From Thermodesulfobacteriota bacterium (GTDB lineage: Bacteria; Desulfobacterota; UBA8473), in assembly GCA_040757775.1 (NCBI GenBank), contig JBFLWQ010000018.1, forward strand, positions 1 to 64,000: a DNA stretch of 64,000 bases, written 5' to 3'. The notes under the pieces are model-generated. The model saw nothing but the letters and a program-made list of their open reading frames with translations. It did no database searches and was not told the origin of the DNA. Positions within the stretch are counted from its first letter, which is position 1. Each line of letters begins with the position of its first letter. Of the stretch, positions 53,960 to 64,000 are shown in pieces. The position numbers and the translations under genes were made by a program.

Positions 53960-56407
53960 GTGAGCGAGAGGACACAGAGTCTGAAGAAAAACGTAGTGAT
54001 CAAAACTCACCGATTGGTTTCCCGTGGCCTGGAAAGAGAGAGGGGAAGCAGTGAAGGAAGTCCCTTCCGTCAAGAGATGGAGGTAGGACTTTGCATGGAT
54101 AGAGCGAGGCTCATTACAGAAGCCTACAAACAAAACGAACACGAGCCTATGGTTATAAAGAGGGCGAAAGCCTTTGTTCATATCTTGGAAAACATGACCA
54201 TTTACATCGAACCCCGTCAAGTATTGGTAGGTAATTTTGCGAGTAGTCCGAATAAGGTAGCACACTACCCTGACCTCCAGTGGCGCTGGCTAGAAAAAAC
54301 TATCTGCACCCCAAATGGCGCGTATAAGGATCTACTTTCTAATGAAGAAAAAGATGAAATGATCTCAATACACAAATACTGGAAGACGAGGGCGGTCCAC
54401 GGTATGGAAAGAGACCTCATACCGGAGAGCTCGAAAGAACACCTTTTCTTCAAGGGACTTTCCTTCTGGGCCTATCAATGGGACATGGGCACTCCTAACT
54501 ATGAGAAGGTTTTCACCATCGGACTCAATGGAATAGCCAGAGAAACAGACGAGAGGCTAAGACAATTAGATCAAGATTATGAAGCATTAATCATAAGCCC
54601 CAAGGACTATCTGGATCAAAGAAGAGACCTAACGGCGATGAGAATAACTTTGGAAGGTACCATCAAGTGGGCAGAAAGATATTCGCAACTGGCCATGGAA
54701 ATGGCTGCCGATGAAGAGGATGGGGAAAGAAAAGAGGAGCTGGAGAAGATCGCAGATATTTGCAAGTGGGTTCCTGCCAACCCCTGCAGGACATTTCATG
54801 AAGCACTTCAGTGCTTTTGGTTCATCCATCTGCTTGTAGGATTTATAGAAGAACCTCAAGTAGGGAGCGGTACAAGATTCGACAAAATATTCTACCCTTT
54901 TTACAGAAAGGATCTCGATGCGGGCAGGATTACGAGAGATCAGGCACAAGAACTTCTTGAGCATATGTGGGTTAACTTCCTGAGCACAGGATTTCTCCAC
55001 CCGCCTGTGTGGTCAGGTTCGGGCGGGGGAGGCCTTGGCTGGCAGACAGTTACGATCGGGGGGGTCGACAGCAAGGGTGAAGACATCACTAACGAAATCA
55101 CCTATTTGGTTTTGGACTCCATTAAGGAAATTAATATGTTGCAGCCACCCCTGGCTCTAAGGGTTCATGAAAAGACGCCCCGAGAGCTGTTATTGAAAGC
55201 CACGGAGGTGCTCAGTACCGGTGTCTCTCAACCTGCCTTTTTTAACGACCGTTTTAATATCCCCAGACTTGTCAGCTTCGGTGTTCCAGAAGAAGAAGCA
55301 AGGGATTACGCTATTAATAGCTGTATGTGGCCCGTAATCCCGGGTAAAAACATAGTTCACAGAAATCCCACTGCTGGATCTGTTATGGTACCGAAAGCTC
55401 TGGAACTTGCGTTAAACCAAGGGAAGGATATAAAAACTGGTGAACAGCTTGGAGTCTCCACGAAAGATCCTTCCGACTTGAAATCGATTGATGAAATAAT
55501 GGGTGCATTACTGGACCAGATTGATTTTGCCGCAAGGGGCCTTTTCTCTATATCAAACATAGCAAACAGATTGTATGAAGAGTACCTCCAAAGGCCGTTC
55601 CTTTCGGCCTTACTCGATGGGTGCATAGAAAGGGGCCAGGAATTGCGGAAGTGGACGTACATGCCATATAGTGACGTTATGATGATAGGAGGCATTAACG
55701 CTGCGGATTCATTAACGGCTATAAAAAAACTCGTCTTCGACGATAAGAAGTTAACAATAGAAAACTTAATAACTGCCTTAAAGAATAATTGGAAAGGCGC
55801 TGAAGAATTGCGACAGATGTGCCTGAATGCACCTAAATTTGGCAATGATGAAGATTACGCCGATTTGGTCGTTAAGGAATTGTACGAGAAGATTGCAGAA
55901 AGATTGAGTAGTATAAAGACGTACACGAGCGGTCAATGGGTTCCTGGAATAGTAGATGGAAGTGCGGCGACGCTCCATTATGGTTATTCCGGACTAACAG
56001 CCGCGACCCCTGATGGAAGATTTGCAGGGGAGACATTCGCGGATGGAAGTATTTCACCGATCATGGGAAGAGACAAGAACGGTCCAACCGCGGTCTTAAT
56101 GTCATTATCTAAGTTAGACCATCGAAAACTCTGGAATACTTTACACAATCAAACGTTTTCTCCACTATATCTGCAAGATCAATTTGCCGGAGTGTTTACA
56201 GATTACCTGAGAACATGGGCAGACATAGGGAGTCACCATATTCAGTTCTCCGTTGTTGACAGTGAGACTCTAAAAGCCGCTCAAAAGCGACCCCAGGAAT
56301 ACCACGAGTTGATTGTGCGCGTCTGCGGCTTCTCTGCGTATTTCATTGACCTAAGTGAGGGCTTACAGAACACAATAATTGACAGAACATTACAGTGCAT
56401 CGGGTAG
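53960..56407 (+). CDS. Glycyl radical enzyme, pyruvate formate-lyase family (2)
   Basis: The 815-residue paralogue of the GRE at 45289 has the radical loop RVCGFSAYF with Gly790 (Tyr replaced by Phe relative to the usual GYS) and the active cysteine C455 in NSCMWPVIPG. CMxP at this place, without the CxE seen in dehydratases, recalls the less common X-succinate-synthase type, but the substrate is unresolved. GTG 53960 has AAAGGAGG 8 nt upstream. It is within the tRNA-bounded island, before two SBPs, and lacks an activating enzyme nearby. Confidence 0.88.
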   Translation: MSERTQSLKKNVVIKTHRLVSRGLERERGSSEGSPFRQEMEVGLCMDRARLITEAYKQNEHEPMVIKRAKAFVHILENMTIYIEPRQVLVGNFASSPNKVAHYPDLQWRWLEKTICTPNGAYKDLLSNEEKDEMISIHKYWKTRAVHGMERDLIPESSKEHLFFKGLSFWAYQWDMGTPNYEKVFTIGLNGIARETDERLRQLDQDYEALIISPKDYLDQRRDLTAMRITLEGTIKWAERYSQLAMEMAADEEDGERKEELEKIADICKWVPANPCRTFHEALQCFWFIHLLVGFIEEPQVGSGTRFDKIFYPFYRKDLDAGRITRDQAQELLEHMWVNFLSTGFLHPPVWSGSGGGGLGWQTVTIGGVDSKGEDITNEITYLVLDSIKEINMLQPPLALRVHEKTPRELLLKATEVLSTGVSQPAFFNDRFNIPRLVSFGVPEEEARDYAINSCMWPVIPGKNIVHRNPTAGSVMVPKALELALNQGKDIKTGEQLGVSTKDPSDLKSIDEIMGALLDQIDFAARGLFSISNIANRLYEEYLQRPFLSALLDGCIERGQELRKWTYMPYSDVMMIGGINAADSLTAIKKLVFDDKKLTIENLITALKNNWKGAEELRQMCLNAPKFGNDEDYADLVVKELYEKIAERLSSIKTYTSGQWVPGIVDGSAATLHYGYSGLTAATPDGRFAGETFADGSISPIMGRDKNGPTAVLMSLSKLDHRKLWNTLHNQTFSPLYLQDQFAGVFTDYLRTWADIGSHHIQFSVVDSETLKAAQKRPQEYHELIVRVCGFSAYFIDLSEGLQNTIIDRTLQCIG

Positions 56408-56816: not shown

Positions 56817-56872
56817 ATGTCCCTTAATCTTTTGGAAAAAGGAAGAATATTTTGGGAAAGGAGGCTAAAGCT

Positions 56873-58078
56873 GTGAAACAGAAAATTTTTAAATGCCCCA
56901 TCTTGATAACGCTTTTTATAATTCTTTTTATCGCCCCCATTGCGTATGCAAAGGAAGTGAGAGGAGTAACCAAAGATTTAATCAAAATAGGGGTTATATA
57001 TGATCAGACAGGGCCGGCAAGTCCTTTGACTGTTCCTGCCTCCCAAGGATTTAAAAACTATTTTCGGTGGGTGAATGAAAAAGGTGGAATCAATGGACGA
57101 AAGATAGAACTGATAATTGAAGACGACAGGTATTCTATCCCTTTAACTATATCTGCATATAAGAAGCTTTTGCTGAGGGATAAGATACTTGTATTATTGG
57201 GTCCGGCATCAAGTCATGGCATGTTTGCCCTTACCTCTACTATTCTTAAGGATAAGCTGCCCTCTATTCTTCCCCCTTCGTCTGACCGAGTTGTAATACC
57301 GCCCAAGCGCTATATGTTTGCAAATGGGTCTACATATGAGGATCAAATTCAATTCATATATCAATATATAGTTAGAGATCTTAAGAAGAAAAATTCCAGG
57401 ATTGCCTTTATTTATAGCGATACTGAACATGGCAAGCTTGGTTTGAAGGCAGCAAAAGAACACAAAGATGAATATGGAATAGACATAACTACTTTTGAGA
57501 TTGTGAACCCAGGAGTCTTGGATGCTACTTCTCAGGCACTCCTTATCAAGAGAGAGAAGCCGGATTTTATTGTAATGCATCTTCTGATTGACAATTCGAT
57601 CGTAATGATGAAATCAGCAATGAAGGTGGGCATAAAAGAGATACCGTTTCTGGGGACACAGTATACGTGTGCTGAGGATGTTATTAAGGTTTCGGGAAAA
57701 GCATCATCTAATTACAAAGGTATGGCAATATACAGTTCATGGTATGATAAGGGGAGTGCCTTGCAGGAAATGAGGGAAGTTACTCTTAGGTATCACCCCG
57801 GGACAGAAAAGCCGTATAGACCGAAGGCGTATACTCAGGGATGGGGAGATGCTATGATAGTTACTGAAGGGTTGAAAAGGGCCGGGAGAGATCTGGACGG
57901 TGAGACTTTTGTCGATGCCTTGGAATCAATTAAGGATTTAGATATGGAAGGGTTGTGTGGACCAGTTACCTTTGGGCCTAATGACCATAAAGGGTCGAGA
58001 TATGTAAAGATGTACAAAGCCAATGTAGAAGAAGGACTGTTGACCCCCATATCAGATTGGATAAAGTTAGAGAAGTAA
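56873..58078 (+). CDS. Orphan substrate-binding protein (3)
   Basis: The 401-residue receptor has a signal peptide of FKCPILITLFIILFIAPIAY type and the mature start KEVRGVTKDLIKIGVIYDQT. GTG 56873 has AAAGGAGG upstream at 8 nt. A TTG at 56852 is not credible. The chain differs from receptors 2 and 4 in the ligand cleft region (PSILPPSSDRVVIPP), so its ligand may differ. The next receptor follows after 68 bp in the same direction. Confidence 0.9.
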   Translation: MKQKIFKCPILITLFIILFIAPIAYAKEVRGVTKDLIKIGVIYDQTGPASPLTVPASQGFKNYFRWVNEKGGINGRKIELIIEDDRYSIPLTISAYKKLLLRDKILVLLGPASSHGMFALTSTILKDKLPSILPPSSDRVVIPPKRYMFANGSTYEDQIQFIYQYIVRDLKKKNSRIAFIYSDTEHGKLGLKAAKEHKDEYGIDITTFEIVNPGVLDATSQALLIKREKPDFIVMHLLIDNSIVMMKSAMKVGIKEIPFLGTQYTCAEDVIKVSGKASSNYKGMAIYSSWYDKGSALQEMREVTLRYHPGTEKPYRPKAYTQGWGDAMIVTEGLKRAGRDLDGETFVDALESIKDLDMEGLCGPVTFGPNDHKGSRYVKMYKANVEEGLLTPISDWIKLEK

Positions 58079-58146
58079 TTTTCCCCTCAAAGTCTCTTGA
58101 CGTTATGGATTTGACCAAATTATCATTAGCAGAAAGGAGATGGAGT

Positions 58147-59352
58147 ATGAAGCTGAAAAGAACCGCATTCGTGCCAATTGCATTGTTGGGAAGTATTTGT
58201 TTCATTAGTAGTTCTATTAGTCAGGCAAAAGAGGTCAGAGGAGTATCGGATACGACGATAAAAATAGGTTTTATCGGAGACCAAACGGGCCCTGCATCAT
58301 CCATACTTGCTTTAGCAGCCCAGGCTGTGAGAACTTATGCTAGGCACATTAATGAACATGGTGGTGTTCATGGAAGACAGTTAAAGATACTGGTGGAAGA
58401 TGACCGTTATTCGATTCCTGCCACCATTTCGGCATTCAAGAAGTTGGTTTACAAAGACAGAATATTTGCCCTCATAGGTCCTGGTTCGGCAAGTTTTGTT
58501 CCCGTGCTCTGGAGAAGAATCCAAAAAGACAAGTTGCCAACTATGTGCCTGCCATTTACTGAGCTTGCTGTTGAACCCTACAAACGATACCTATTTATTA
58601 CCAGTGATACCTATGAAGGCCAGATGGGAACCCTTGTGGACTATATGGTCAAAGATTACAACCTGAAAGAACCAAGGATCGGTTTGATTTATCCTGATAC
58701 TGAAGCTGGAAAGACAGATTTGAGAGCTGCACTACCCAGGTTAAAAAAATACAACTTAGAACCAGTAACGAGAGAGGTTCTAATGCCCGGAGCATTAGAT
58801 GCTGCTACCCAGGTAATGAGTTTAAGGAAGTACAAAGTAAATTGCGTACTTACTGGCGGAACCATTACGGCGACGGCCGTTACATTACTAAGGGAATTGA
58901 AGAAGATGGGATTAAAGATACCGGTCTTTACTAGTTATGCCGCGATGCTCACGGAGGGTTTGAATCATATTGGTGATGCCGGAGAGCAGGCCTATTCGAT
59001 TCATGCTATGTCTCCCTGGTATGGTGAAGGGGAGGGGGTAGCAACCATGAGGGAAGTTACGCTCAAATATCACCCGGGAACGGAAAAGCCCTACCGTGGG
59101 ACAGCATACACATATGGATGGGTCATGACAACTGTTTTAGTTGAAGGACTCAGAAGAGCAGGTAAGGGTCTTGACGAAGAGGAACTGATAGGGGCTCTTG
59201 AGAGTCTAAAGAATTATGAGACCGGAGAACTCTGTAATCCTATCACGTACAGTCCGCAAAGCCACAAAGGCGGGAATTCATCAAAGATATATAAAGTTGA
59301 CCCTGTTGGTCAAAAATACGTCTCCATAACGGGATGGAGAAAGTCAGAGTAG
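58147..59352 (+). CDS. Orphan substrate-binding protein (4)
   Basis: The 401-residue receptor starts MKLKRTAFVPIALLGSICFI (signal peptide) and has KEVRGVSDTTIKIGFIGDQT as mature start. ATG 58147 has AAAGGAGA upstream. The 58057 frame would overlap the previous gene. It is closest to the receptor at 49788. It is the last gene before the right island boundary, with 210 bp of gene-free sequence between. Confidence 0.9.
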   Translation: MKLKRTAFVPIALLGSICFISSSISQAKEVRGVSDTTIKIGFIGDQTGPASSILALAAQAVRTYARHINEHGGVHGRQLKILVEDDRYSIPATISAFKKLVYKDRIFALIGPGSASFVPVLWRRIQKDKLPTMCLPFTELAVEPYKRYLFITSDTYEGQMGTLVDYMVKDYNLKEPRIGLIYPDTEAGKTDLRAALPRLKKYNLEPVTREVLMPGALDAATQVMSLRKYKVNCVLTGGTITATAVTLLRELKKMGLKIPVFTSYAAMLTEGLNHIGDAGEQAYSIHAMSPWYGEGEGVATMREVTLKYHPGTEKPYRGTAYTYGWVMTTVLVEGLRRAGKGLDEEELIGALESLKNYETGELCNPITYSPQSHKGGNSSKIYKVDPVGQKYVSITGWRKSE

Positions 59353-62785: not shown

Positions 62786-62850
62786 AGTTTTACCTCTTAT
62801 AAAGTGATGGTTTCGTAAAATAGAAGAGAGCTTTGAAAATCCATACAAAC

Positions 62851-62958
62851 TGTCATTGAGAGGAGCGGGGCAATCTGCCTACCGCAGGCAGGCGCGGCAA
62901 TCTCTAATCAACACGTTATGAGATTGCTTCATCCGCCTCTGGCGGATTCGCAATGACA
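62851..62958. repeat. TGTCATTG inverted-repeat element
   Basis: A 108-bp element starts TGTCATTG and ends CAATGACA, with inner inverted parts (GCAATCT and AGATTGC; CCGCCTCTGGCGG). A relative is at about 29563. The surroundings (62786-63207) hold no gene. Confidence 0.7.
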
Positions 62959-63207
62959 AATTGGGCATTTTTCAAAGGGTTTTTTAGAAGTATTTCAAAG
63001 AAAGGTTCAAATGTCAAGAATAGAAGAAGAGATTTTCTAATTACGGATTGTCGATGAATTGATGCCTGTCCCTCAGATATCAAAGTACATAATGGCAACC
63101 AGATTTCCCTTGACAAATTGAAGAGAAGTCATATATTTTTTTCAAAAAGGTTCCTTTTTGTTAAAGGGGTCTGAAGGTTCGGGAGCAACCCTTAAAAGGA
63201 GAGAACA

Positions 63208-63357
63208 ATGAAAGAAATCGTGATTGTTATATCGATTTTAGCTGTATATTTTGTATTGAATACGTGGGTGTTACCAAAGCTCGGTATTAACACATGAATG
63301 AAAAAATCGTGTACGGTTGAGGATCAACCCTTAAAAGACACCAAAGTTAAAGACTGA
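63208..63357 (+). CDS. Candidate small membrane selenoprotein (TGA as Sec)
   Basis: ATG 63208 has AAAAGGAGAG upstream. The frame reads MKEIVIVISILAVYFVLNTW, VLPKLGINT, then an in-frame TGA at 63295-63297, then MKKSCTVEDQPLKDTKVKD and TGA at 63355-63357. One membrane segment (about 3-20) precedes U30-M-K-K-S-C35. If TGA is a stop the product is only 29 residues. A SECIS-like stem-loop lies 17 nt after the TGA. A UxxxxC pair after a membrane anchor would be redox-active. Readthrough is inferred, not shown. Confidence 0.6.
63315..63329 (+). promoter_or_regulatory. Putative bacterial SECIS hairpin
   Basis: GGTTGA pairs perfectly with TCAACC around a GGA loop. The loop lies about 24 nt downstream of the TGA and starts with G, which fits the general bacterial SECIS model. 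Confidence 0.55.
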
Positions 63358-63425
63358 TTAATAATGATTGAACGCAAACAGGTTGTTATCCAAACAGCCA
63401 ACTATTTTAAAGACAAGGAGTAAAT

Positions 63426-63701
63426 ATGTCCGTAAAAGACAATTCAAATGATAAAGATTCTTCTGCAAAAAGCCTTACCTGTAAAGTCCATAATGTCAAA
63501 CCTCCGGAAGAGGAGGAAAACATTCATAAGGGCGTTGTGAGTTCATTTCGCAGACTCGATGGACTGCCATTAATTGAGACAAAGGATGGGAAGGCAGTAA
63601 TATTAAAGGAATTTGAGACAAAACCTGAGATAGGAGAGGAAATCGAGTACATTATAACCGTAAAGCATGGAAGTGTCATGTATGGAAAAAGAATTAACTA
63701 A
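63426..63701 (+). CDS. Small hypothetical protein
   Basis: The 91-residue soluble protein has a polar N-terminus of 35 residues (KDNSNDKDSSAKSLTCKVHN) and a C-terminal domain rich in beta strands (KGVVSSFRRLDGLPLIETKD, AVILKEFETKP, IEYIITVKHGSVMYG). It is not recognised. AAGGAG precedes the ATG. It lies 68 bp after the candidate selenoprotein and may be in the same transcript. Confidence 0.65.
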   Translation: MSVKDNSNDKDSSAKSLTCKVHNVKPPEEEENIHKGVVSSFRRLDGLPLIETKDGKAVILKEFETKPEIGEEIEYIITVKHGSVMYGKRIN

Positions 63702-63757
63702 ACCCCTTAATATCAATTAATGTGAGCAACTTTGAATTGACAGGTTAGGTTCTAATT

Positions 63758-64000
63758 ATGAGATATTTTATGAGAAGCTTTCTGATAATAACCTTTCTTT
63801 TGGCTTCTTTACCGATTTTTGCCAAAGATGATCCATATATTGCAGCCAGAGAACGAATGGTGGAGAGGAACCTCTGCGGAAGGGATATCGTTGACAAGAG
63901 GGTCCTTGCTGTAATGCGAAAGGTGCCAAGACACCTCTTTGTTGACGACAGTTTGAAAAAGATGGCTTATGCTGATCGGCCTTTACCCATTGGAGAGGGA
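63758..64000 (+). CDS. Exported protein-L-isoaspartate O-methyltransferase-like protein (5' part)
   Basis: The frame begins [20 protein letters not shown], a signal peptide cut near FAK, then [34 protein letters not shown] and [10 protein letters not shown], the start of a Pcm-type methyltransferase. It runs off the right edge (81 codons visible). Pcm is usually cytosolic, and a periplasmic form would repair isoaspartate in exported proteins. ATG 63770 is an alternative start. Confidence 0.85.

Follow-up and report, generated by a model that had tools for sequence, protein, structure and literature searches.

A probable small membrane selenoprotein of a new, widespread bacterial family

The gene and its product

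The window (i.e. the whole stretch of 64,000 nucleotides that was analysed) carries on its forward strand, between a divergent Sir2 deacylase gene and a gene for a 91-residue protein, a short reading frame that starts with ATG at position 63208, runs for 29 codons to a TGA at 63295-63297 and continues in frame for 19 sense codons to a second TGA at 63355-63357. An AAGGAG ribosome-binding site (63196-63201) lies 6 nt upstream of the ATG, and the starts of the relatives described below are mostly preceded by AGG-type sites as well. An earlier sequence-only reading had claimed a 29-codon frame with a good ribosome site and a 19-codon extension to a second TGA, and direct reading of the DNA gives the same layout. 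The downstream 91-residue protein (63426-63701) was assigned to no family and is conserved in the genus.

With the first TGA (63295-63297) read as selenocysteine (Sec), the gene at 63208-63357 would comprise 49 codons plus a TGA stop, with Sec as codon 30. Its product would be MKEIVIVISILAVYFVLNTWVLPKLGINT-U-MKKSCTVEDQPLKDTKVKD (49 amino acids), made up of one membrane helix, the motif LPKLG, Sec30, Cys35 and a short charged tail. Cys35 (codon at 63310-63312) is conserved in the relatives and is presumed to be the resolving cysteine of a UxxxxC pair. The second TGA would be the true stop, a position at which 78 relatives use TAA (33), TGA (23) or TAG (22). Inside the coding sequence, and also on the forward strand, lies a candidate bSECIS hairpin, GGTTGA[GGA]TCAACC, at 63315-63329, the loop of which starts 23 nt after the UGA.

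The single transmembrane helix is predicted to span residues 2-24 (63211-63279), with LPK at its end; in the AlphaFold2 model (mean pLDDT 68.9) it is followed by a disordered tail. Family members have a median length of 51-54 residues and a net charge of -0.4 before and +1.7 after the helix, a bias that suggests an N-out/C-in topology, in which case the Sec-x4-Cys pair would be situated just outside the membrane, on the predicted cytoplasmic face. The product thus does not resemble a thioredoxin fold with a UxxC or CxxU motif, being a helix and a disordered tail with a UxxxxC motif and without a Pfam match.

Conservation of the UGA codon and the hairpin

In a tblastn-type search of 59 genomes, with Cys put in place of the TGA, the same protein was found in 22 genomes. 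Four of these belong to the host's genus, the host itself included, and the other 18 to about 16 further GTDB families; each has a single TGA, always at this codon, and the conserved TGA frame is therefore not a product of chance. In the alignment M1, P23, G26 and U30 do not vary, and T29 and C35 hardly do. When the alignment was turned into a profile, C was put at the Sec column, so that Cys forms were not disfavoured; at E ≤ 0.1 the profile matched 185 of the 395 genomes searched in the phylum, about 166 of them with E below 1e-5. Among the matches listed, all strong ones carry the TGA, and so do those of the inspected weaker ones that are true members.

A scan of GTDB genomes with the DNA pattern LP[KR][LF]G(V/I)xT-TGH-M yielded at least 115 loci, of which, among the matches listed, 111 have TGA, two have a real Cys codon (L132, TGC; L192, TGT) and two (L115 and L136) were rejected as chance matches. 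Cys homologues are consequently very rare, with two among the 113 real matches listed, and in expecting them to be common the sequence-only reading was wrong. The titles of the records, which for the MAGs are the depositors' own, name more than ten phyla (Deltaproteobacteria, KSB1, Acidobacteria, Melainabacteria/Obscuribacter, Spirochaetes, Margulisbacteria, Verrucomicrobia, Planctomycetota, Eisenbacteria, Zixibacteria, Armatimonadetes and Rokubacteria), as well as the isolates Citrifermentans bremense, Desulfonema magnum and Geomonas. Of 53 genomes of the Obscuribacter order, 34 contain a match. No relatives were found on viral contigs, plasmids or phages; a profile search of the PDB gave nothing meaningful, and one of PHROGs gave nothing. 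In six Obscuribacter/Melainabacteria MAGs, the hosts of which are non-photosynthetic relatives of cyanobacteria and mostly have SelB, the selenoprotein gene is located next to rhodanese/persulfide-type genes.

Conservation extends beyond the TGA, where the frame encodes a charged tail and, in 112 of 127 members, a Cys at U+5; in the phylum sample, with one member counted per genome, 73 of 78 have the Cys at +5 or +6. Homologues ending with TAA or TAG at the inner codon, which the sequence-only reading had named as evidence against itself, were not encountered among the strong matches listed; relatives carry TGA there.

As for the hairpin, the sequence-only reading was right in that a 6-bp stem with a GGA loop is present 17 nt after the TGA, but the minimum-energy fold of this copy's own RNA uses a shifted pairing, and it is covariation rather than the fold of the single sequence that supports the predicted stem. 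In 13 sequences selected from those of the protein search and aligned in the register of 63315-63329, 88.5% of the cells pair versus 64% after shuffling, both sides vary in seven of the eight pairs, and covariation scores 0.764, against 0.264 for shuffled sequences and at most 0.18 for slid registers, although these figures lean in favour of the hairpin because most of the 13 sequences share the register. The synonymous control does not have this leaning: the stems of 128 members score 15.1 on average, against 7.0 when their codons are shuffled synonymously, and the protein sequence therefore does not explain the hairpin. The loop in these 128 members is mostly GGA, AGGT or GGTC, and the hairpin centre lies mostly 20-28 nt downstream of the start of the UGA.

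The hairpin at 63315-63329 (loop GGA, stem of 6 bp, spacing of 23 nt) agrees with the published bSECIS rules, i.e. a loop of 3-9 nt, a stem of at least 4 bp, a G in the first two loop positions and a loop 16-37 nt from the UGA. Hairpins that agree with these rules at -5 kcal/mol or better follow 73% of the family UGAs, compared to 12% of ordinary TGA stops (those of long ORFs) and 8% in an upstream coding control. By itself the hairpin at 63315-63329 has -5.0 kcal/mol (published criterion ≤ -7.5), and a 51-nt segment reaches -10.4 by the shifted pairing; -7.5 kcal/mol is reached by the hairpin alone in 50% of the relatives. An Rfam scan of 62800-64000 gave only chance matches.

The genome also encodes what Sec decoding requires. 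Lack of selenocysteine genes had been named as a refutation, but the host genome (3.1 Mb, 100% complete) contains a tRNA-Sec scoring well above the cut-off, SelA (E 5e-193), SelB (E 7e-107) and a Sec-type selD, itself with one in-frame TGA (G000:C15:71406-72332). A check of 38 more carriers, most of which belong to other phyla, showed selB at E ≤ 1e-30 in 36, with scores over the curated cut-off in 30, and one of the two without detectable selB is the MAG with the Cys form L132. Within the phylum, the family occurs in 158 of the 353 genomes with selB versus 8 of the 42 without, a co-occurrence of modest informative value, as selB is present in 353 of the 395 genomes anyway; the eight carriers that lack a full-length selB match are mostly incomplete MAGs, one being 98% complete.

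That the inner TGA is simply the stop of a 29-residue membrane peptide, with TGAATG starting a coupled second small ORF and the hairpin being incidental or a terminator, would fit with TGA being a normal stop in this genome and with the ATG that follows it here and in 46 of 78 relatives. Yet in the other 32 no ATG follows, so that TGAATG does not behave as a stop-start junction. Moreover, none of the strong matches listed has TAA or TAG as its inner codon, though true ends use all three stops; where a natural replacement was seen, it was a Cys codon, and similar hairpins are much rarer after ordinary TGA stops (see above), which together make this explanation very improbable. Even less probable is the insertion of an amino acid other than Sec at the UGA, namely Trp or Cys as a result of leaky decoding or a changed code. 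A conserved read-through frame by itself would look similar at the protein level, but none of the relatives seen has Trp at this column, the substitutions being Cys, and both the SECIS-type hairpin conserved with compensatory changes and the complete Sec machinery (with selB in nearly all further carriers) argue against it. Comparative genomics thus strongly supports decoding of the UGA as Sec by SelB and tRNA-Sec, directed by a putative in-gene bSECIS. The sequence-only reading's description as a tiny membrane selenoprotein is judged right, each refutation that it named having failed on testing, and the in silico call of a selenoprotein is nearly certain. With high confidence, the gene at 63208-63357 is predicted to encode a small membrane selenoprotein of a new and widespread family.

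Gene neighbourhoods and possible function

Since the gene setting varies among family members, neighbours that do recur are informative. They were counted around 78 loci (one per genome) and in 80 control windows from the same genomes, in counts that ignore shared ancestry. A gene for an FmdB-family zinc-ribbon protein lies near on the same strand at 20 of 78 loci versus none of 80 controls (p about 2e-7). These neighbours score above the cut-off of TIGR02605, come from eight GTDB families and, depending on the lineage, lie upstream or downstream. Examples include L264, L280, L080, L112, L126 and L295. In the GTDB scan, FmdB is found within 2.6 kb at 22 of the 113 listed pattern loci, KSB1 and Acidobacteria MAGs included, the genomes being partly the same. 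A thioredoxin gene directly adjoins the family gene on the same strand at 7 of the 78 loci and in none of the 80 controls, and thioredoxin and TlpA-type genes taken together occur within 4 kb at 11 versus 1 (p 0.002). Next to 63208-63357 neither FmdB nor thioredoxin is present (FmdB genes are found elsewhere in the host genome), and its function is therefore deduced from its relatives. Two further kinds of neighbours, convergent D-Ala-D-Ala carboxypeptidase genes and downstream ECF sigma genes, were judged to be lineage synteny.

The most likely mechanism, though tentative and falling somewhat short of an even chance, would be a membrane-tethered Sec/Cys redox relay fed by thioredoxin. The selenol would attack oxidised sulfur or peroxide species at the membrane surface. 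Sec would then form a selenenylsulfide with the Cys five residues on (which in this way acts as the resolving residue), thioredoxin would reduce it back, and the recurrent FmdB protein would be a partner or client.

The Sec/Cys pair could instead mainly bind a metal(loid) or sulfane sulfur rather than pass through a thioredoxin-reduced selenenylsulfide cycle, for instance in metal hand-over with the FmdB zinc ribbon or in a persulfide relay with rhodanese and ETHE1-type enzymes, a slightly less probable alternative. It draws on FmdB being the strongest neighbour, on P-type ATPase genes that flank a few family copies, and on several membrane selenoproteins being linked with metal handling (PMC13188914). 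In several Obscuribacterales MAGs, moreover, the gene follows a rhodanese or CoA-disulfide reductase (CoADR)-rhodanese gene, with ETHE1-rhodanese and ArsR-type genes nearby and YgaP-type genes in the same redox context; genes of these kinds (YgaP-TM included) also flank it in a few other MAGs. In the phylum-wide sample, however, rhodanese/CoADR genes are not enriched (2 of 78 versus 3 of 80), which limits this link to some lineages, whereas thioredoxin-type genes are. It is unlikely that the protein serves a larger membrane complex as a small accessory subunit in which Sec is structural or redox-sensing. Its size and single helix do resemble those of known accessory subunits such as CydX, but no recurrent membrane-complex operon adjoins the family genes, and the conserved U and C are in the tail instead of the helix.

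In Desulfobacteraceae-type MAGs (eleven loci), the start of an ECF sigma-factor gene coincides with the end of the selenoprotein gene or slightly precedes it, and in some an anti-sigma-like zinc-binding gene comes next.

Relation to known selenoproteins

No model of NCBIfam (June 2026), those for selenoproteins included, matches any of the 22 members scanned (best E 0.002, to ATP synthase subunit B), nor does any Pfam model. The 119 prokaryotic selenoprotein families and subfamilies of the 2026 catalogue (PMC13188914) include no evident counterpart of a single-helix UxxxxC protein of about 50 residues, and the families of Haft & Tolstoy 2025, as far as they are given in that review, include no match. 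With the catalogued bacterial selenoproteins the family shares the in-frame UGA, the bSECIS hairpin, a Sec with a nearby Cys and the occurrence in genomes with Sec machinery, but nearly all catalogued families are said to have Cys homologues (PMC13188914 and the deep-Sep paper), whereas this one has almost none. The deep-Sep paper states that its own method may miss selenoproteins without Cys homologues, a limitation that fits a family almost devoid of them.

TsoB (NF045694), a selenoprotein resembling a rhodanese/DsbD fusion, also has four residues between its redox pair (UxxxxU) and a membrane and sulfur-redox context, but it is a large fusion (model length 572) without sequence match to the present family. 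The eukaryotic SELENOK and SELENOS are single-pass membrane proteins with no folded redox domain and with Sec in a short disordered tail. They are alike in build alone (one helix and a Sec tail), no sequence relation being claimed, and differ in their eukaryotic SECIS and in having Sec near the C-terminal end. A rhodanese/YgaP-TM gene neighbours the family in one planctomycete MAG (L149), and similar rhodanese genes adjoin the Obscuribacterales copies, but the family has no Pfam match to PF11127.

Roughly four in ten of the genomes sampled in the phylum carry the family, which is also present in MAGs whose titles name more than ten phyla. It occurs in hundreds of bacterial genomes and was hidden until now because every gene finder stops at this UGA. 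Methods published so far depend largely on Cys homologues and would overlook such a family, and bacterial selenoproteomes are therefore likely undercounted for very small proteins. FmdB is itself a widespread small zinc-ribbon family with a poorly known role, and the tie between the two makes the function of both testable. A wider reading, with almost an even chance as a whole, is that these proteins are among the commonest bacterial selenoproteins and nearly Sec-only, that in anaerobes they belong, together with FmdB-type zinc-ribbon proteins and thioredoxin, to a membrane redox system (possibly for persulfides) that has yet to be described, and that they were missed because of their length of about 50 residues and their lack of Cys homologues.

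In four members of one genus (L197, L199, L203 and L204), a second in-frame TGA can be read from the sequence. A separate UxxxxC motif (PTUDGxSC or PTUDGxTC) and a separate perfect hairpin, CGATTGG-CCAATCG, belong to this second TGA; in L199 the hairpin is AGATTGG-CCAATCT, a compensatory change. The double-Sec region lies about 90-210 nt after the start codon. Elsewhere in the window, a large ORF at 53960-56407 has by eye the look of a glycyl-radical enzyme (pyruvate-formate-lyase type) and is followed by two similar genes for ABC-type substrate-binding proteins (56852-58078 and 58057-59352).
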